From assembly GCA_014874255.1 (NCBI GenBank), contig JACWAN010000096.1, forward strand, positions 1 to 42,675: 42,675 nt of DNA. Direction: 5' to 3'. Every line of letters starts with the position of its first letter. Positions within the stretch are counted from its first letter, which is position 1. Of this stretch, positions 643 to 12,495 are shown piece by piece. The position numbers and the translations under genes are program-made. The stretch is from Candidatus Woesearchaeota archaeon (lineage in GTDB: Archaea; Nanobdellota; Nanobdellia; Woesearchaeales; UBA525). The notes under the pieces are model-generated. The model searched no databases, was not told the origin of the DNA, and saw only the letters and a program-made list of their open reading frames with translations.

Positions 643-1281
643 TCAGTACTCGACGCCCCTCCGCGCGAGGACGCCCTGTTCGTAGTAGTGCTTCCGCTTC
701 ACCATCTCCGTCACCAGGTCTGCCTTGTCGAGCAGCTCTTTCGGGATCTCGCCGCTCCACGCGCCGCCCGTCAGGACGAGCTCGACGTGGTCCGGCTTCA
801 AGTCAATGAGTTCGAGCGCCTTCTCGAGCGGCAGCATCCCGTACGTCACCGCGTAGACGATCTCGTCGAGGATGACGAGGCCGTAGTCGCCCGATTCGAT
901 GATCTTCTTCGCGTGGCTGTATGCGTCCTCGCAGAACTGCCGCTGTTTCGTGTCGTTGACGAAACAATAGCGGCACGTGCCACACGGCTCGTCGTCGCGT
1001 ACCTGCATCGCCTCAATCTCGAGGAACTGCTCCTTGTCGAACTCGGCTATCTTGAGCTGCTTGTCCTCGCGGATGCAGCCGCGGCCGAATTGCCGTATCT
1101 TGAACCGGCCGTCGAGGAACCGTTCGGCGGCGAGCAGTTCACCCGTATAGCGGCCGCCCTTCATGAACTGGACCATGTAGACGAGGATGTTCTGTCCGAC
1201 GGCGCGGAGCGCCAAGCCTACGGCGGCGGTCGTCTTCCCTTTCCCTTGGCCGATGTAGGCGTGGACCAGCCCTTTCTTCAC
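643..1281 (-). CDS. cobO: Cob(I)alamin / corrinoid adenosyltransferase (CobO/BtuR type)
   Basis: GTG start; N-terminal GLVHAYIGQGKGKTTAAVGLALRA P-loop, LVILDEIVYAV, and LTGG...P.ELLDKADLVTEM. Lies 27 nt downstream of a B12-dependent RNR. Confidence 0.9.
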   Translation of the reverse strand: MKKGLVHAYIGQGKGKTTAAVGLALRAVGQNILVYMVQFMKGGRYTGELLAAERFLDGRFKIRQFGRGCIREDKQLKIAEFDKEQFLEIEAMQVRDDEPCGTCRYCFVNDTKQRQFCEDAYSHAKKIIESGDYGLVILDEIVYAVTYGMLPLEKALELIDLKPDHVELVLTGGAWSGEIPKELLDKADLVTEMVKRKHYYEQGVLARRGVEY

Positions 1282-1308: not shown

Positions 1309-3480
1309 TTATCGCGAGAATTCCGCGAGGCTCTTGTTCTCCGAGAGCACTTTCAGCTCCTCGCGGATCGAGCGCCTTTCTCCTTTCTGCTCGTGCGCCT
1401 TGCTGAGCAGCGAGGTGACCGTCAGCACCTGCTCGCTCATCGAGCCGTCGCGGTAGATCGTGCACCCCTTGCACCCGAGCTTCCACGCCAGCAGGAAGAC
1501 GTTCTCCACGTCGAGCAGCGTCGCGTGGTTCGGTAGGTTCACCGTCTTCGAGACCGCGTTGTCGACGTGCGCCTGGACCGCGGCCTGCATCCGGACGTGC
1601 CACTCCGGCGGGATGTCGTGCGTCGTGACGAAGACGCGCTTCACCTCGTCCGGCACCTCTTTCGCAGCGGCCAATCCGAAGTTCGCGATCCGCTCGACGA
1701 GCTCCTCGGTGTAGAGGTCGAGTTCCTGGAGCCGCTCCTTCAGGTGGGGATCGATGTAGTAGAACTCCTCGCCGCCGAGCACCTTCTTGACGTAGCTGAC
1801 GTTGAACAGCGGTTCGATCCCGGAACTCGTCTCCGCGATCATGGACGTGCTGCCCGTCGGGCTGATCGCGAGCCTGGACGCGTTCCGCAGCTTCCGCTCC
1901 TCCGTCTTCTCCTTGCCGGTGAACCGCTTGGATTTGGCACAGTAGACACTCATCTTCCAGTCCGGGAACGGGGTCCGCTCCTTCGCGAGTGATTCGCTCG
2001 CCTCGTCCGCCGCCTCGCGGACCGCTTTCATCACGTCGCCCGCGGTCTTGACGCCCTCCTCGCTGTCGTACGGGATGCGGAGCTGGACGAGCATGTGCGC
2101 CAGCCCCATCACGCCCAGCCCGATCTTGCGGTGGCGCCACGTCACGGTCTGCGCCCGCTTGATAGGATACTGCGTCGCCTCGATCATGTCGTCGAGGAAC
2201 CGGACGCCGAGCGCCACGACTTCTTTGAGTCGCTTCCAGTCCACAACGTGCTCGTCCGTGACGAAGTTCGCGAGGTTGACGCTGCCGATGAACCCCTGCT
2301 CGTACGCGCTGAGCAGGAACTCCGCGCACGAACTGGTAGCTTCGAACGGATGGTCGGGCACGGGATTGGAGCGCTTCATCGCGTCCTTGAACAGCACCCC
2401 AGGATCGCCGTGGTTCCACGCGCTCGCCACGATGAGGTCGAAGACCTGCTTCGCGTTCATCCGCGCAGTTATTTCCTTCGTGGAGGGGTCCTTGAGCGCG
2501 TACTCCTTGTCCGCGATGACGGCGTGCATGAACTCGTCCGAGAGCAGCACGCTCAGGTTGAAGTTCTCCAGGATGCGCTCCTGGGATTTCGCGGTGATGA
2601 AGTCGAGCGCGTCCGGATGCGTGACGTCGAGCACGGCCATGTTGCCTCCCTGGCGTCGGCCGCCCTGCTTGATCGTCTTCGCCGACTCGCTGAACAGCCG
2701 GAGGAAGACGAGCGGCCCGGACGCGACGCCGCCGATGGACTTGACCCGCGCCCCCTTCCGCCTGAGCGAGGAGAAGTTGAACCCCGTTCCGCACCCCACT
2801 TGTTGCATCTTCGCCGCGTCGTACAGCGCGCGGTAGATCGCGGTGAGATCATCGCCGACCGGGATGGCGATGCTGCTCGCCAGCTGCTGGTAACCGGTGC
2901 CCGCGTTCATGAGGCACGGGCTGTTCGGCAGGAAGTCGAGGTCGCGCATCGCGCGCTTGAACCGGTTGCGCCACTGGCGCTGTTCCGCCTCGTCAGCGCC
3001 GAACCTCTTCTCCGCCGCCGCCACCGACTTGGCGACGCGGTCGAACAATTCGTCCGGGGATTCGAACCAGCCGCGCTCCTCGTCGCGCAGCAGGTACCGT
3101 TCGCGGAGGAGCTTGAGCGCGTTGATGCTCAGGTCTGTCGAGACCTGTTTGCCGATGAGCGCGGATTTCGCGTTCCGTTCGGCAGCACGCTGCTCCCGGT
3201 ACAGGATGAAATGCCTGGCGACGCGATGGTGGCCGCTCTCCATGAGCGTCTCTTCGACAAGGTCCTGGACCTCCTCGACGTACGGCAAGCGTTTCCCGCT
3301 CTCCTTCGCGTAGACCCTGAGGAGCTTCTTCTCGACCTTCTCCGCGAGCTCCGCGACGGGGAGATTCTCCTCGGACGCTCCGGCCGCGAGCTCGATGACG
3401 TGCTCGATCTTCTCCCGCTTGTACGGCACGATCCTGCCGTCCCGCTTCTTGATCTTCTCGAGAACGAACTGCTGCGCCAT
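1309..3480 (-). CDS. nrdJ: Adenosylcobalamin-dependent (class II) ribonucleoside-diphosphate reductase-like protein with N-terminal ATP-cone; atypical active site
   Basis: MAQQFVLEKIKKRDGRIVPYKREKIEHVI (ATP cone), NSPCLMNAGT, GCGTGFNFSSLR, IKQGGRRQGGNMAVLDVTHPD, SPTGSTSMIAETSSGIEPLF. The ATG at 3480 fits better than the longer ORF start. Confidence 0.9.
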   Translation of the reverse strand: MAQQFVLEKIKKRDGRIVPYKREKIEHVIELAAGASEENLPVAELAEKVEKKLLRVYAKESGKRLPYVEEVQDLVEETLMESGHHRVARHFILYREQRAAERNAKSALIGKQVSTDLSINALKLLRERYLLRDEERGWFESPDELFDRVAKSVAAAEKRFGADEAEQRQWRNRFKRAMRDLDFLPNSPCLMNAGTGYQQLASSIAIPVGDDLTAIYRALYDAAKMQQVGCGTGFNFSSLRRKGARVKSIGGVASGPLVFLRLFSESAKTIKQGGRRQGGNMAVLDVTHPDALDFITAKSQERILENFNLSVLLSDEFMHAVIADKEYALKDPSTKEITARMNAKQVFDLIVASAWNHGDPGVLFKDAMKRSNPVPDHPFEATSSCAEFLLSAYEQGFIGSVNLANFVTDEHVVDWKRLKEVVALGVRFLDDMIEATQYPIKRAQTVTWRHRKIGLGVMGLAHMLVQLRIPYDSEEGVKTAGDVMKAVREAADEASESLAKERTPFPDWKMSVYCAKSKRFTGKEKTEERKLRNASRLAISPTGSTSMIAETSSGIEPLFNVSYVKKVLGGEEFYYIDPHLKERLQELDLYTEELVERIANFGLAAAKEVPDEVKRVFVTTHDIPPEWHVRMQAAVQAHVDNAVSKTVNLPNHATLLDVENVFLLAWKLGCKGCTIYRDGSMSEQVLTVTSLLSKAHEQKGERRSIREELKVLSENKSLAEFSR

Positions 3481-3679: not shown

Positions 3680-3701
3680 CATATCAACGATTATTGATAT
3701 G
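3680..3701. promoter_or_regulatory. Inverted repeat CATATCAA-N6-TTGATATG overlapping the arsR start codon; TATA box TTTTATAA at 3665-3672
   Basis: Perfect 8-6-8 inverted repeat; the right half contains the ATG at 3699. The TATA box is about 27-30 bp upstream, so the transcript is probably leaderless. Confidence 0.75.
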
Positions 3702-3983
3702 AATACTTCCGTCGATGCATCGCCGCTCCCGCCCCGCGAGCTCTTCCGCGCGCTCGGCGTCGAGACGAACTATCGGATACTCTCCGAGCTCTTCAAGGCC
3801 GAGCGGTGCGCCTGCGAGCTGCCCGCGCTCGTCGGCAAGACCCAGTCGAACACGTCGATGCACCTCGCCAAGCTCCTCCGGCTCGGCCTCGTCGGCGTGC
3901 GGCGCGACGGGAAGAGGCACGTCTACTCCCTCACGGATGCGCGGGCGCGCAGGACCCTGGCGGCATGCGAGGCGGGACGGTGA
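3699..3983 (+). CDS. ArsR-family metal-responsive transcriptional regulator
   Basis: LFRALGVETNYRILSELFKAERCACELPALVGKTQSNTSMHLAKLLRLGLVGVRRDGKRHVYSL. wHTH with CxC in the alpha-3 region, as in ArsR (CVCEL-like). Confidence 0.9.
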   Translation: MNTSVDASPLPPRELFRALGVETNYRILSELFKAERCACELPALVGKTQSNTSMHLAKLLRLGLVGVRRDGKRHVYSLTDARARRTLAACEAGR

Positions 3984-3988
3984 AGGCG

Positions 3989-4243
3989 ATGAAGCTCCAG
4001 GTGCTCGGCTCCGGCTGCCCGAGCTGCAAACGGCTCTACGAGATGACGAAACAGGCGGCGGCCGACCTCGGCCTCGACGCGGACGTCGAATACGTGACGG
4101 ACATCCAGCAGATACTGGCGATGGGCCTGATGAGCAGCCCGGTCCTCGCGGTCGACGGCAAGCCGGTCATCGTCGGCTTCGTCCCCGGTAGCGTCGACAA
4201 GGTGAAAGAGCTCCTCAAGGCGATCCCTCCGGTCGGGCGATGA
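3989..4243 (+). CDS. Small thioredoxin-fold redox protein (CPSC active site)
   Basis: MKLQVLGSGCPSCKRLYEMTKQAAADLGLDADVEYVTDIQQILAMGLMSSPVLAVDGKPVIVGFVPG; typical of thioredoxin-like proteins beside DUF318 permeases. Confidence 0.85.
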   Translation: MKLQVLGSGCPSCKRLYEMTKQAAADLGLDADVEYVTDIQQILAMGLMSSPVLAVDGKPVIVGFVPGSVDKVKELLKAIPPVGR

Positions 4244-4247
4244 GCGC

Positions 4248-5210
4248 ATGGATATCTTCGCCCCGTTCGGATGGTTCGCCACCTGGCTCGCGGCCGCGCT
4301 CGGCATCGTCCCAGGAACCCGTCTGTGGGACGCGGCCACATTCTTCGTCGCCGACACGCTCAAGATCTTCCTCCTGCTCGCGGTCATCATCTTCGCCGTC
4401 TCCTGGCTGCGCACCTACCTGCCGCCCGAGCGCATCCGGAAGCTGCTCGCCCACCAGCACAAGTACGTGGCGAACGTCCTCGCCGCCCTCCTCGGCGTCT
4501 TCACCCCGTTCTGCACGTGCAGCGCCATCCCCCTCTTCCTCGGCTTCGTCGAGGCCGGCGTGCCGCTCGGCGCCACCTTCTCCTTCCTCGTCGCCTCGCC
4601 CATGGTGAACGAGGTGGCGCTCGTCCTCCTCCTCTCCCTCTTCGGCTGGCGGATCGCGCTCCTCTACATCACCACAGGACTGGTCATCGCAGTCCTCTCC
4701 GGCATCCTCATCGGCGCGCTCCGGCTCGAGCACCTCGTCGCCGGCTTCGTCAAGAAGGCCGAGGTCATCGACGCGGCCGCGCTCCCGGAGCTGACGCACA
4801 AGGACCGGCTCGACTACGCGAAGGCGTACACAATCGACATCCTCAAGAAGGTGTGGCTCTACGTCCTCCTCGGCGTCGGCGCCGGCGCGTGGATCCACGG
4901 CTACGTCCCCGTGGATTTCCTCGCCCGGTACGCGGGCGCGGACAAGTGGTATGCGGTGCCGTTCGCGGTCCTGATCGGCATTCCGCTCTACAGCAATGCC
5001 GCCGGTGTCATCCCCCTTGTCTCTGCTCTCACGGAGAAAGGCGTCGCCATGGGGACGACGCTCGCCTTCATGATGGCCGTGACCGCGCTCTCGCTCCCGG
5101 AGTTCATGATCCTGAAGAAGGTGATGAAGACGCGGCTCCTCCTCATTTTCGCCGGCATCGTCGGCGCAGGCATCATCCTCACCGGCTTCCTCTTCAACGC
5201 GATATTGTGA
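4248..5210 (+). CDS. DUF318/ArsP-type permease
   Basis: TPFCTCSAIPLFLGFVEAGVPLGATFSFLVASPMVNEVA and IPLYSNAAGVIPLVSAL motifs; multiple TM helices. Confidence 0.88.
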   Translation: MDIFAPFGWFATWLAAALGIVPGTRLWDAATFFVADTLKIFLLLAVIIFAVSWLRTYLPPERIRKLLAHQHKYVANVLAALLGVFTPFCTCSAIPLFLGFVEAGVPLGATFSFLVASPMVNEVALVLLLSLFGWRIALLYITTGLVIAVLSGILIGALRLEHLVAGFVKKAEVIDAAALPELTHKDRLDYAKAYTIDILKKVWLYVLLGVGAGAWIHGYVPVDFLARYAGADKWYAVPFAVLIGIPLYSNAAGVIPLVSALTEKGVAMGTTLAFMMAVTALSLPEFMILKKVMKTRLLLIFAGIVGAGIILTGFLFNAIL

Positions 5211-5253
5211 ACGAACTGCTGCGACGTCAAAGGCTGAAAATGAGGCGACCATC

Positions 5254-6153
5254 ATGCATGAACATCCAAAGAACAGCAAGAAGGTCGTCGGCGCGATCAT
5301 CTTCAACCTCGCGATCAGCATCACCGCGTACATCGGCGGCGTCGTCTCGGGAAGCCTCGCGCTCATCTCCGAAGCGGGGCATAATCTCACCGACGTGCTC
5401 GCGCTCGGCATAGGGTACGTCGGCGAACGCCTCGGCGAGCGGCCGTCGAACAAGCGGCATTCATTCGGCTACAAGCGTGCGGAGGTGCTCGCCGCCCTCA
5501 TCAACGCAATCGCGCTCATCGTCATCGCCATCCTCGTCATCGTCGAAGCGGTCAATCGCTGGGCAGCACAGGCGCCCGTGGGGCTCACCGCGCTCTTCAT
5601 CTTCGGCGCCGTCGGGCTCATCGGGAACATCGCGTCCATCCTGCTCCTCCACGAAGATGCCGAGAAGACGCTGAACCGCAAGGCGATGTACCTGCACCTG
5701 TTCTACGACGTCCTCTCGTCCGCGGCGGTCATCCTCACCGGGTTTGTCATCTGGCTCACGGGAACGTACTATATCGATCTGGTCGTCAGCATCGGCATCT
5801 CGGGGTTCATGCTCTGGAACAGCATCACGCTCCTCCGCAACGTCATACACCTGATTATGCAGGGAGTTCCCGATGGTGTTGATATGGATGCGATTCGCAA
5901 AGATATCTTGAGCATACCCGCGGTCAATGACGTGCATACACTCCACGTGTGGGGGATAAATTCCGAGGAAAACGTCCTCTCTTGTCATCTCTGTACAAAG
6001 AGCGAAGACACGGATCAGGTCATCAATCAGATTAACGCACTCATGAAAGAGAAACACGACATCATCCACACGACGATACAGGTAGAACGCCGGGCGCTCT
6101 GCAAGAACAGCGATGAGGACTATGGGACGAAGCATGCCGCGCAGCACGGATAG
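5254..6153 (+). CDS. Cation diffusion facilitator (CzcD/ZnT family) transporter
   Basis: AISITAYIGGVVSGSLALISEAGHNLTDVLALGIGYVGERL and LHLFYDVLSSAAVI...; C-terminal domain with VNDVHTLHVWGI. Confidence 0.93.
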   Translation: MHEHPKNSKKVVGAIIFNLAISITAYIGGVVSGSLALISEAGHNLTDVLALGIGYVGERLGERPSNKRHSFGYKRAEVLAALINAIALIVIAILVIVEAVNRWAAQAPVGLTALFIFGAVGLIGNIASILLLHEDAEKTLNRKAMYLHLFYDVLSSAAVILTGFVIWLTGTYYIDLVVSIGISGFMLWNSITLLRNVIHLIMQGVPDGVDMDAIRKDILSIPAVNDVHTLHVWGINSEENVLSCHLCTKSEDTDQVINQINALMKEKHDIIHTTIQVERRALCKNSDEDYGTKHAAQHG

Positions 6154-6186
6154 GAAATGCCCTGTCTGCATAGAGAACTGCTCGAG

Positions 6187-6993
6187 ATGTACAACATGAT
6201 ATCCATCACCACAATCATCGTTCTCAGCGTCATCGTCGGGGTAATCACCGCCGGGCTCTCGATTCGGTTCGACCGCTTCTTTGTCATGCTCCTGCTGCTC
6301 TTCTTGGCGGGCGTGGCCATAAAAGACGCGGTGAACATCTTCCTCGTCGTCATCCTTCTCGGAGCGCTGACATTCTTGCTGGAGAGGAAGGAGGCCCTGA
6401 GGACGATTCCGCGAGAGGACCGCGTCAAGTTCCTGACGCTCGTGCCCGTCCTCGTCGCGGTCTTCTCCTTTCTCGGCTCCTGGCTCTTCATCGGCGCGTC
6501 AGATGCTGTCTTGATACTGGTCTTCGGCGTCCTGACGGTCCTCTACGGTCTGCGGCTCATAGTCATCCACTTCGGCGAGCACGAGAAGGGGCATACCGCG
6601 GCCAAGCCCGGCATGAGGATGTTCTGCGGGCTTGCCGGGCCGATGCTGAGCGGCTTCTCCGTCGGTTTCATCGGGACCTCCCTGAAGTCGTTGAAGATCC
6701 CCTTCGCGGTCAGGTTCGGCAAGATGAACCTGCCGCAGGTGTACGTGGAGAATGCCATCACCGCCGCGTACGCGTCGCTCTTCGCCATCATCTGGCGCTT
6801 CGTGTTCATCGGGACTGCCCAGATCCGGTCCGTCTTGTACGGCGTGGCCATCTGGGGGATCATTCACGCATTCTTCGACCTCACCGAGAAGACATTTCCT
6901 CGGCGCTGGAAGAAGGCGTTCCAGATAATCATCGGCGTCGTGCTGCTCGCGGCTGCGGTGAAGGTCTTCGCCTTGTTATTGATACCTGGATGA
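6187..6993 (+). CDS. TSUP (TauE/SafE)-like membrane transporter
   Basis: About 8 TM segments; GLAGPMLSGFSVGFIGTSLKSLKIPFAVRFGKMNLPQVYVENAITAAYASL. Start could also be 6157 or 6196. Confidence 0.6.
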   Translation: MYNMISITTIIVLSVIVGVITAGLSIRFDRFFVMLLLLFLAGVAIKDAVNIFLVVILLGALTFLLERKEALRTIPREDRVKFLTLVPVLVAVFSFLGSWLFIGASDAVLILVFGVLTVLYGLRLIVIHFGEHEKGHTAAKPGMRMFCGLAGPMLSGFSVGFIGTSLKSLKIPFAVRFGKMNLPQVYVENAITAAYASLFAIIWRFVFIGTAQIRSVLYGVAIWGIIHAFFDLTEKTFPRRWKKAFQIIIGVVLLAAAVKVFALLLIPG

Positions 6994-9111: not shown

Positions 9112-12100
9112 TCAACTGCATCCGGTGGTCGCTCCACAATCCTCGCAGAGCGCGCAGCTCCCGTTCCGCTTCAGCCGCATCGACTGGCAGCCCGGGCATC
9201 TGTCCCCAGTATATCCTTTCGCCTTCGCCTCCGCGACTAAGCGTTCCTCTTCGGAGAGCACGCGTTCCGCCTTCTTCTTCGGCGCCTCTCCCGCACGTGC
9301 AGCGCGCGTCGGCTTGACCTCCTTCAGATGGACGAGGTCCTGGCGGCCGAGGTACTCATGGCCCAGCACCCGGTAGAGATAATCGACGGGTGACGTCGCG
9401 TTCTTGATGGCCGCGTCCCCGGTGACCGGCCCGCCGGGCGGGAAGTCAGTGAACGCGAACCGCTCCACCAGCTCTGAGAGCGGGATGCCGCGCTGCAGCG
9501 CGTAGCTGACGAGCTGGCTGTACGCGGCGAGCATGCCGCGGAACTCCTCAGGCTCCGCCTCCATGGATAATTCGACGGAACCGAGGCCGCCGTCCTGGTA
9601 TTCGGCGGTGAGGACCTGGACAGGCTTCCCGACGATGGCGGCAACGCGGACGACGCCTTCCCATTCCGGCGTGCCGACGTGCCGCGCGGCGATGCCGTGC
9701 TGCACCGCTTCCGGCGTCACGGCAGCTTCGTCCACGTCGTCCTCCTCGAACTGGCTCAAGTCCTCGGAGACGGTGTTGAGGGGCTGGCTCAGCTTCGAGC
9801 CGTCGCGGTAGAGCGCGTTCGCCTTGAGCATCAGCTTCCAGCTGAGCAGGTAGGCGTCCTCGATGTCCTTGAGCGTGGCCTCGTTCGGCATGTTGATCGT
9901 CTTGCTGATCGCGCCGCTGATGAACGGCTGGGCCGCGGCCATCGCCTTGATGTGCGCCTGGTACTCGAGGAACCGCTTCCCCTTCCGGCCGCACCGGTTC
10001 GCGCAGTCGAACACGGGCAGGTGCGCGTCCTTGAGGCCGGGCGCGCCCTCGAGCGTCATCGTGCCGCAGACGTACTCGTTCGCGGCCTCGATCTCCTCCT
10101 TGGAGAACCCGAGCGCGGCGAGGAGATTGAAGCTGGGGTCCTCATACTCCGCCTTCTTGAAGCCGAGCTTCTCGAGCGCCTTGTCGCCGAGCGTGAACCG
10201 GTTGAAGACGAAGCCGATGTCGAACGCGGCCGGCAACTGCTTCTCCGCGGCGACGAGCGCCTCTTCCGGCAGGCCTCTCTTCCGGAGCGCGTCGTGCGTC
10301 ACGCCCTTCTTCAGGCCGTCGAGCGTGCCGTGGCCGACCGCGTACGTGATGATCGCGTCGATCTCCTTCGACGGATAGCCGAGCTTCTTCAGCGCGGAAG
10401 GGACTGATTGGTTGATAATCTTGAAGTAGCCGCCGCCCGCGAGCTTCTTGAACTTGACGATGGCGAAGTCCGGCTCGATCCCCGTGGTGTCGCAGTCCAT
10501 GACGAGGCCGATCGTCCCGGTCGGCGCGAGGACGGTTGCCTGCGCGTTCCGGTAGCCGTGTTGTTCGCCCAGGCTGAGCGCCTCGTCCCAGCACGCCTTG
10601 GCCGCGGCGACGAGCGGCGCCGGACAGTGTTTCGGGTCGATGCCCATCGGCGTGACCGTCAGTCCCTCATACTCCGACTGCTTGGCGTTGTACGCCGCTC
10701 GCCGGTGGTTCCGGATGACACGGAGCATCTGCTCCTTGTTCTTCGCGTAGCCGGCGAACGCGCCCAGCGAGGCGGCCATCTCAGCGCTCGTCGCATACGA
10801 CTGGCCGGTCAGGATGGCGGTGACCGCGCCGATGAAGCCGCGCGCCTCGTCGCTGTCGTACGGGACGCCGGCGCGCATCAGCGCGCTGCCGATGTTCGCG
10901 TACCCGAGTCCCAAGGAACGGAACCGGTAGCTGAGCCGCGCCATCGGCTCGCTCGGGAACTGGGCCATGAGGACGCTGATCTCGAGCACGATCGTCATGA
11001 GCCGCACGGCGTGCCGGAACGCGTCCACGTCGAGCGTCCCGTCCTCCTTGAGGAACTTGACGACGTTGATGCTGGCGAGGTTGCACGCGGTGTCGTCGAG
11101 AAAGAGGTACTCGCTGCACGGATTTGACGCGTTGATCCTCCCGTCCGCGGGGCAAGTGTGCCACTCGTTGATTGTCGTGTCGTACTGGACGCCCGGGTCG
11201 GCGGAGTGCCACGCGGCGAGGCAGACCTTGTTCCAGAGGTCGCGCGCCTTGAGCGTCCGCCACTTCCCGCCGTCCGTGCGCTTGATCAGGTCCCACTCCC
11301 CGTCGTCCTCGACCGCCTTGAGGAACGCGTTCGGGATCCGGACCGTGTTGTTGGCGTGCTGTCCCGCCACGGTCTGGTAGGCCTCGCCTTCGTAGTGCGT
11401 GTCGAACACCTTGAAATCAGGGTCGTAGATCCCTTGCTCTCCGAGCTGGATGATTCGGAAGACGTAGTTGAGGGGGACGCCGAGCCGCTTCGCGTCCCTG
11501 ATCGCGTTCTTGAGCGCAGGGTTCGTGTTCCAGTTCGCGCCCGCTTTCGCCGCTTCTGCGACCTTCGTGAGCGCCGCCTTGGAGACCCTGCTGCCCGCGA
11601 CCAGGTCCGCCACTTTCTGCTCCTCGCGGTACTTCCACATGATGAAGGTCTCGATCTCCGGGTGGTCCATGTCGAGGCAGACCATCTTCGCCGCCCTTCT
11701 GGTGGTGCCGCCGGACTTGATCGCGCCCGCGCCCGCGTCGAAGAGCTTGAGGAAGCTCATCAATCCCGAGGAGGTGCCTCCTCCGCTGAGCGGCTCGCCC
11801 TTTCCCCTGAGCCGGGAGAAGTTGCTTCCCGTGCCGCTCCCGTACTTGAAGATGCGCGCTTCCCGGATCGCGAGGTCGAAGATGCCGCCTTCGTTGACGA
11901 GGTCGTCCCGCAAGGATTGGATGAAGCACGCGTGCGGCTGCGGCCGCGTGTACGCGTCCTCACTCTTCCTCGTCTCGCCGGTCGCGGGATCCGCGTAGTA
12001 GTGGCCCTGCGGGCTGCCGGTGATGCCGTACGCCCACGCCAGTCCGGTGTTGAACCATTGCGGCGAGTTCGGCGCCGTCATCTGGCTGAGGAGCATGAAC

Positions 12101-12495
12101 GCGAGCTCGTCATAGAACGCCTGCGCGTCCTGTTCGCTGGCGAAGTAGCCGTGGTTCTCGCCCCAGCTGCGCCAGCATCCGGCAAGGCGGTGCGCCACCT
12201 GCTTCACGCTCGTCTCGGAGCCGAGGACCGGCTTGCCGTCCGGCCCCTTCTTCATGTTCCCGTGCTCGTCTTTCTGCGGCACGCCCGCCTTGCGGATGTA
12301 CTTCTGCGCGAGGATGTCCGTGGCGAGCTGGCTCCACCCGGTCGGCACTTCCACGCCCTTGATTTCGAAGACGACGCTCCCGTCAGGGTTCCTGATGACC
12401 GAGTCGCGCCGCTCGTAGCTGAACCGTGCGTAGGGGTCCTTCCCCTCTTCCGTGAACATCCGCTTGACCGAGAGACCTTTCGAGACCATGACCAT
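9112..12495 (-). CDS. nrdJ: Adenosylcobalamin-dependent (class II) ribonucleotide reductase, large form with C-terminal Cys motif
   Basis: NSPQWFNTGLAWAYG, QPHACFIQS, KYGSGTGSNFSRLRGKGEPLSGGGTSSGLMSF, NASNPCSEYLFLDDTACNLASINV, and C-terminal CPGCQSMRLKRNGSCALCEDCG. Start 12495 or 12489. Confidence 0.95.
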   Translation of the reverse strand: MVMVSKGLSVKRMFTEEGKDPYARFSYERRDSVIRNPDGSVVFEIKGVEVPTGWSQLATDILAQKYIRKAGVPQKDEHGNMKKGPDGKPVLGSETSVKQVAHRLAGCWRSWGENHGYFASEQDAQAFYDELAFMLLSQMTAPNSPQWFNTGLAWAYGITGSPQGHYYADPATGETRKSEDAYTRPQPHACFIQSLRDDLVNEGGIFDLAIREARIFKYGSGTGSNFSRLRGKGEPLSGGGTSSGLMSFLKLFDAGAGAIKSGGTTRRAAKMVCLDMDHPEIETFIMWKYREEQKVADLVAGSRVSKAALTKVAEAAKAGANWNTNPALKNAIRDAKRLGVPLNYVFRIIQLGEQGIYDPDFKVFDTHYEGEAYQTVAGQHANNTVRIPNAFLKAVEDDGEWDLIKRTDGGKWRTLKARDLWNKVCLAAWHSADPGVQYDTTINEWHTCPADGRINASNPCSEYLFLDDTACNLASINVVKFLKEDGTLDVDAFRHAVRLMTIVLEISVLMAQFPSEPMARLSYRFRSLGLGYANIGSALMRAGVPYDSDEARGFIGAVTAILTGQSYATSAEMAASLGAFAGYAKNKEQMLRVIRNHRRAAYNAKQSEYEGLTVTPMGIDPKHCPAPLVAAAKACWDEALSLGEQHGYRNAQATVLAPTGTIGLVMDCDTTGIEPDFAIVKFKKLAGGGYFKIINQSVPSALKKLGYPSKEIDAIITYAVGHGTLDGLKKGVTHDALRKRGLPEEALVAAEKQLPAAFDIGFVFNRFTLGDKALEKLGFKKAEYEDPSFNLLAALGFSKEEIEAANEYVCGTMTLEGAPGLKDAHLPVFDCANRCGRKGKRFLEYQAHIKAMAAAQPFISGAISKTINMPNEATLKDIEDAYLLSWKLMLKANALYRDGSKLSQPLNTVSEDLSQFEEDDVDEAAVTPEAVQHGIAARHVGTPEWEGVVRVAAIVGKPVQVLTAEYQDGGLGSVELSMEAEPEEFRGMLAAYSQLVSYALQRGIPLSELVERFAFTDFPPGGPVTGDAAIKNATSPVDYLYRVLGHEYLGRQDLVHLKEVKPTRAARAGEAPKKKAERVLSEEERLVAEAKAKGYTGDRCPGCQSMRLKRNGSCALCEDCGATTGCS

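Follow-up and report, generated by a model that had tools for sequence, protein, structure and literature searches.

The window, that is, the whole 42,675-nucleotide stretch of Woesearchaeales DNA that was analyzed, contains two class II ribonucleotide reductase (RNR) genes, one of which encodes a protein without the redox cysteines of this class. Here, a tailless copy, termed a companion, is defined as one with no Cys whatever after the YRDGS strand, and CxxxC and C...C tails were scored as tails. The relevant features, all on the minus strand, are as follows.

1309–3480, minus strand: tailless, redox-cysteine-free NrdJ_Z paralogue (companion), 723 amino acids from ATG (ORF, profile, alignment and AlphaFold2 evidence)
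3184–3456, minus strand: ATP-cone domain, residues 9–99 (PF03477; E value, 4.2e-20)
2872–2874, minus strand: Ser203 codon, at a redox Cys position (T. maritima C134; E. coli C225; alignment)
2332–2334, minus strand: Ser383 codon, at the conserved Asn position (T. maritima N320; E. coli N437; alignment)
2326–2328, minus strand: Cys385 codon, kept thiyl-radical cysteine on the finger loop (alignment; kept in 77 of 77 companions)
2320–2322, minus strand: Glu387 codon, kept general-base glutamate (alignment)
2293–2295, minus strand: Gly396 codon, at the second redox Cys position (T. maritima C333; E. coli C462; alignment)
1312–1419, minus strand: C-terminal 36 residues, Cys-free; in tailed relatives a Cys-rich tail takes this place (alignment and tail inspection)
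643–1281, minus strand: corrinoid adenosyltransferase gene CobO/BtuR, 27 bp downstream of the companion on the same strand (PF02572; E value, 8e-52)
9112–12495, minus strand: intact tailed class II RNR of the PF08471/PRK07562 type, the probable partner (profile matches and motif inspection)

The product of 1309–3480 matched the Pfam domains ATP-cone, Ribonuc_red_lgN, and Ribonuc_red_lgC, the latter two covering the all-alpha and barrel domains of RNRs. Its best curated match over the cut-off was NCBIfam NrdJ_Z (TIGR02504; 620 bits against a cut-off of 400), and its best solved relative in a phmmer search was T. maritima NrdJ (1xje; E value, 1.5e-100). An AlphaFold2 model (mean pLDDT 89.5) was matched to 1xje by Foldseek with a TM-score of 0.84 by target length. 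The 10-stranded barrel with a finger loop was recovered by the Pfam, PDB, and Foldseek matches and in the model, where the loop lies between strands 379–382 and 389–391, as in RNRs.

In the phmmer pairwise alignment, Cys134, Asn320, Cys322, Glu324, and Cys333 of T. maritima NrdJ aligned with Ser203, Ser383, Cys385, Glu387, and Gly396, respectively. The radical cysteine is kept at the tip of the finger loop (Cys385, equivalent to C322), the redox pair is replaced by Ser203 and Gly396, and the tail after the YRDGS strand has no Cys, neither as a C-terminal pair nor in a zinc finger. The NXCXE finger-loop motif common to RNR classes O, I, and II (PMC9669993) reads SSCAE or SACAE, with Asn replaced by Ser in six of six genus members. 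The preliminary description had reported a class II RNR-like protein without the two active-site redox cysteines and the C-terminal CxxC, but with the ATP cone, radical cysteine, and Glu retained and the finger-loop Asn changed to Ser; the alignment bears it out on each point and places the motifs at the same positions (about 2886–2860 and 2346–2272). It was also right that the second RNR at 9112–12495 keeps its cysteines, which are found in PHACF, NPCSE, ACNLAS, and a Cys-rich tail. No obvious replacement pair at shifted positions was found in the focal protein. The two candidates, C673 and C230, appear unconvincing as substitutes; C673 (in KGCT) is shared with certain intact tailed RNRs, and one of the six genus members has Ser in place of C230. 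These comparisons confirmed, at the level of sequence, that the focal protein is a real class II RNR homologue minus the reducing cysteines.

The named relatives at 71–96% identity were from Candidatus Woesearchaeota/Nanoarchaeia MAGs. The Ser/Ser/Cys/Glu/Gly pattern was present in all six genomes of the focal genus, and the substitutions are thus clade-wide. By the Nei–Gojobori method, dN/dS was approximately 0.13 for the closest pair within the genus and 0.06–0.08 for three other close companion pairs. The focal ORF is an intact gene under purifying selection.

To place the protein within its order, about 140 RNR regions of Woesearchaeales were fetched and 193 class II RNR ORFs were aligned. 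Tailless NrdJ_Z copies numbered 77 and came from about 15 families. Both redox cysteines were lost in 16 of them, one in 15, and none in 46. The radical cysteine was kept in every copy, and the base Glu was kept in 69 (Asp in seven and Gln in one, from genome G024). Asn of the NPC motif was replaced by Ser, Asp, or Gly in 45 copies. Companions retained a median of 96% of the 125 columns with conservation of 95% or more among tailed NrdJ_Z. Among the most changed columns were the two redox Cys and, besides the Pro and Asn of NPC, a loop-2 Arg and the Gly at position 230. The changes cluster on active-site residues (positions 384, 383, 230, 396, and 203 and loop-2 position 277), and unrelated lineages repeatedly have Ser at 203 and 383.

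Several individual loci showed further peculiarities. One companion clade (L193, L194, L222, L235, L148, L151, and L248) carries coupled Asn-to-Asp and Glu-to-Asp changes flanking the radical cysteine (TTDPCGDQ). Three consecutive overlapping class II RNR genes, none with a tail Cys and one without an ATP cone, lie at 944–6746 of L153 (G256). The NrdJ_Z at 4606–6768 of L219 (G293), which adjoins another class II RNR, has a full zinc-finger tail, yet its Asn and second redox Cys are both Ser, indicating that the order of losses differs there. An apparent companion–PduO fusion at 3948–6656 of L239 (G209) was set aside as a probable deletion or assembly join; its PduO part lacks the N-terminus.

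An IQ-TREE phylogeny of 112 rows was built with the catalytic columns removed. The companion label required 11 changes on this tree, eight of them forced by well-supported branches; the count is approximate, the label set being imperfect (G209, G092, and G120 were scored as tailed). A single companion origin, found in 0% of bootstrap trees and at odds with the at least eight forced changes, is not supported. By E. coli position, 10 changes were counted at C225, 13 at C462, 10 at N437, two at E441, and none at C439. The probability that all 23 cysteine losses spared the radical cysteine by chance is approximately 9e-5 in an idealized calculation in which the three cysteines are equally free to go. 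The focal genus forms a long isolated branch, and the sister genus-level companions (G006–G009) are placed elsewhere on the tree. Independent cases also occur in another order of the class, where the protein of G419 has two motifs, SLASSIAIP and TSSCAE, that closely resemble those of the focal protein, although its best matches by similarity (about 50% identity) were tailed RNRs and not proteins of the focal genus. On this evidence, related archaea underwent this change many times. Judged against open-access work, no paper on a Woesearchaeota RNR with this feature was found, and the wider pattern of tailless NrdJ_Z copies in Woesearchaeales is apparently undescribed so far.

A clue absent from the preliminary description is that companions occur together with an intact class II RNR, mostly encoded next door. 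A second class II RNR was present in 50 of 52 companion genomes (44 of 46 in the first search and six of six later), a count in which MAG incompleteness affects the absences; the two exceptions are fragmented, G004 being 73% complete and the companion of G127 lying on a 5.6-kb contig. Where an intact tailed NrdJ_Z was present, about six of 30 genomes had a second one. Of 73 companions, 51 (in 10 families) had a partner RNR no more than 5 kb away, compared with five of 49 tailed NrdJ_Z genes (Fisher p = 2e-11, only indicative because the rows are related). Those five exceptions are themselves degenerate or represent a tailed copy beside its own close paralogue (family f38). Companion and partner genes abut or overlap in G193, G223, G256, and G293. 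The partners are drawn from at least five NrdJ subfamilies, indicating that the association was re-formed repeatedly. In the partner genes that were inspected, NPCxE is kept, in some cases with an intein within the motif, and a Cys-containing tail is mostly present. Taken together, the co-occurrence and linkage of the two genes resemble those of an NrdJa/NrdJb-like arrangement and suggest a two-component system.

Probable inteins were seen in nine tailed partners (L143, L159, L167, L168, L170, L176, L177, L257, and L284), either at the NPC radical-cysteine site or right after PHA, before the redox cysteine. In L233 (G079), a TLYNC-type partner gene is apparently split into two frames separated by stop codons, and the genome has a further tailed RNR. 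The plus-strand genes at 3699–6993 of the window, between the two RNR genes, encode an ArsR/SmtB regulator, an MTH895/ArsE-type thioredoxin, an ArsP-like permease, a CDF transporter, and a TauE-like protein.

Other neighboring genes were also compared. In five of six focal-genus members, CobO is the next gene downstream of the companion, and an adenosyltransferase gene (BtuR/CobO or PduO type) was found at 56 of 73 companion loci; this adjacency is not specific to companions, being common beside intact tailed genes as well (28 of 49 loci). NrdR was found in 10 companion loci; the RNR genes often share an operon with the adenosyltransferase gene and sometimes with NrdR. An ATP cone is present in the companion and absent from the partner in families f1, f60, f26, f59, and f24, but the arrangement is reversed in f9 and f16, both proteins have a cone in f2, f37, and f38, and neither has one in one f7 genome (G015). 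These cases contradict, as a general rule, the idea that the companion is a dedicated ATP-cone subunit.

The explanation that we tentatively prefer, with a little less than an even chance of being correct, is that the companion is a specialized class II RNR paralogue that recurrently evolved into a partner subunit of the neighboring intact class II RNR, and that it has probably kept the AdoCbl/thiyl site but not nucleotide reduction. The genes with which it is associated, those for an intact RNR, NrdR, and adenosyltransferase, place it in AdoCbl-dependent dNTP synthesis. The companion would bind nucleotides and AdoCbl and would associate with the tailed RNR, probably via the RNR dimer face that bears the specificity site. 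It may thereby supply allosteric or structural control, including, in the focal family, an ATP cone that the partner lacks. In the simplest scenario, a duplicate or second RNR would have been gained and the two proteins would have come to associate, after which the companion lost its tail, and the Cys pair and Asn decayed or were replaced in several lineages. Tail loss was probably the first of these losses, and companions that keep the Cys pair could be re-reduced by the partner's tail. Because a tailless RNR is hard to turn over in the cell, tail loss is reasonable only if another protein provides a tail or turnover is not needed, and the disappearance of the Cys pair and Asn in several lineages suggests that reduction is no longer the companion's job. 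Three observations count against the partner-subunit reading: the radical cysteine, which a subunit with a purely regulatory role could do without, is kept in 77 of 77 companions; the complementary distribution of the ATP cone is a tendency, not a rule; and the two RNR genes of the window are 5.6 kb apart with opposite-strand genes between them. The invariance of the radical cysteine argues against a purely structural role and allows for real radical chemistry, and an AdoCbl-coupled radical step is likely to have been retained.

The strongest competing explanation is that the companion is a self-standing AdoCbl radical enzyme, in which the Cys385 thiyl takes H3' (or another hydrogen), Glu387 acts as a base, and the outcome is non-reductive, such as isomerization, dehydration, base release, or a reaction of another substrate. 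On this view, class II RNRs would several times have given rise to a novel type of AdoCbl-dependent radical enzyme, one that uses the thiyl on nucleotides without dithiol reduction. It might do so within a heteromeric complex, starting or gating the radical reactions of the neighboring RNR. The radical cysteine was never lost, compared with approximately 10 and 13 changes of the redox cysteines on the tree, and Glu is kept in 69 of 77 copies, with Asp in seven. Also in line with it are the adenosyltransferase gene directly downstream in five of six genus members, the clustering of changes in the active site while about 96% of the other invariant columns are kept, and the fact that unrelated lineages have repeatedly acquired Ser at 203 and 383. 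However, the loop-2 and Asn changes could equally reflect a loss of catalysis, Gln replaces Glu in G024, and the nearly constant presence of an intact RNR, joined in some families by NrdR, suggests a role in dNTP synthesis and not in a pathway of its own. We consider this explanation unlikely, but it keeps substantial probability because the radical cysteine is invariant in every companion; for the same reason, the different radical chemistry suggested in the preliminary description may apply.

It is less probable still that the companion is a non-catalytic homologue with an unrelated role, for example a nucleotide sensor or regulator, like the inactive large-subunit homologues of betaherpesviruses. 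Such inactive homologues are known (PMC5469499), and the ATP cone and many structural invariants are retained here, but an invariant radical cysteine, a mostly kept Glu, and adjoining adenosyltransferase genes would not be expected of them. Improbable to a somewhat greater degree is an RNR that reduces ribonucleotides with another reductant, either formate, as suggested in the preliminary description, or a small external thiol. The kept radical Cys and Glu with a changed Asn are compatible with it, and DTT reduces the active-site disulfide of NrdJa without a tail (PMC4520616), but that precedent needs the Cys pair that the focal protein lacks, and an intact RNR is already in the genome. Formate-dependent class III RNRs keep a beta-A Cys and a finger-loop Met (PMC9669993), where the focal protein has Ser203 and SSCAE, and eight genomes from the focal family yielded neither an NrdD gene nor a PFL-like one; the formate mechanism is disfavored, although formate could come from elsewhere. 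Finally, a decaying pseudogene or assembly artefact, which the several missing catalytic residues might suggest, is very unlikely given the agreement of six independent genus assemblies (71–96% identity) with open frames, dN/dS of 0.06–0.13 in close companion pairs, the confident fold, and the recurrence across many families.

A previous review stated that every class I and class II RNR has both redox cysteines (PMC4390871). In contrast, members of the class II family in these archaea have repeatedly lost both redox cysteines, and never the radical cysteine, while an intact copy was kept. They provide many natural replicates of one change and a way to ask what purpose the thiyl radical serves once reduction is gone, and they bear on whether class II RNRs can be heteromeric. 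They also call for caution in annotation, as these genes are named vitamin B12-dependent ribonucleotide reductase, whereas their products probably cannot reduce ribonucleotides alone.

Compared with known systems, the focal protein shares the barrel, finger loop, radical Cys, base Glu, and overall fold of T. maritima NrdJ (1xje/3o0o; TIGR02504), but it lacks the redox Cys pair, the Asn of NXCXE, and the Cys tail, and a second intact class II RNR is encoded alongside. Class III NrdD of the formate-dependent type likewise lacks a complete redox Cys pair of the class I/II type (PMC9669993; PMC4390871), but NrdD has a beta-A Cys, a finger-loop Met, and a glycyl-radical domain, none of which is present in the focal protein. 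The inactive cytomegalovirus protein is also an RNR large-subunit homologue (PMC5469499), but it is viral, of class I type, and of a different role, whereas the archaeal companions keep the radical Cys in 77 of 77 cases. In Leeuwenhoekiella blandensis, the ATP cone has moved to the partner subunit NrdB (PMC5794259), so that the cone is likewise on the other component when the catalytic subunit has none; that system is class I and its partner is the radical-generating subunit, whereas the focal companion is an RNR paralogue. The split NrdJa/NrdJb of Pseudomonas aeruginosa also consists of two gene products, one of them without the reducing tail, which is supplied in trans by NrdJb, a subunit required in vivo (PMC4520616). 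There, NrdJa has all of the catalytic machinery, NrdJb being a small thiol-exchange subunit, whereas the pair in the window consists of two full-size RNR homologues, only one of which has the Cys pair.
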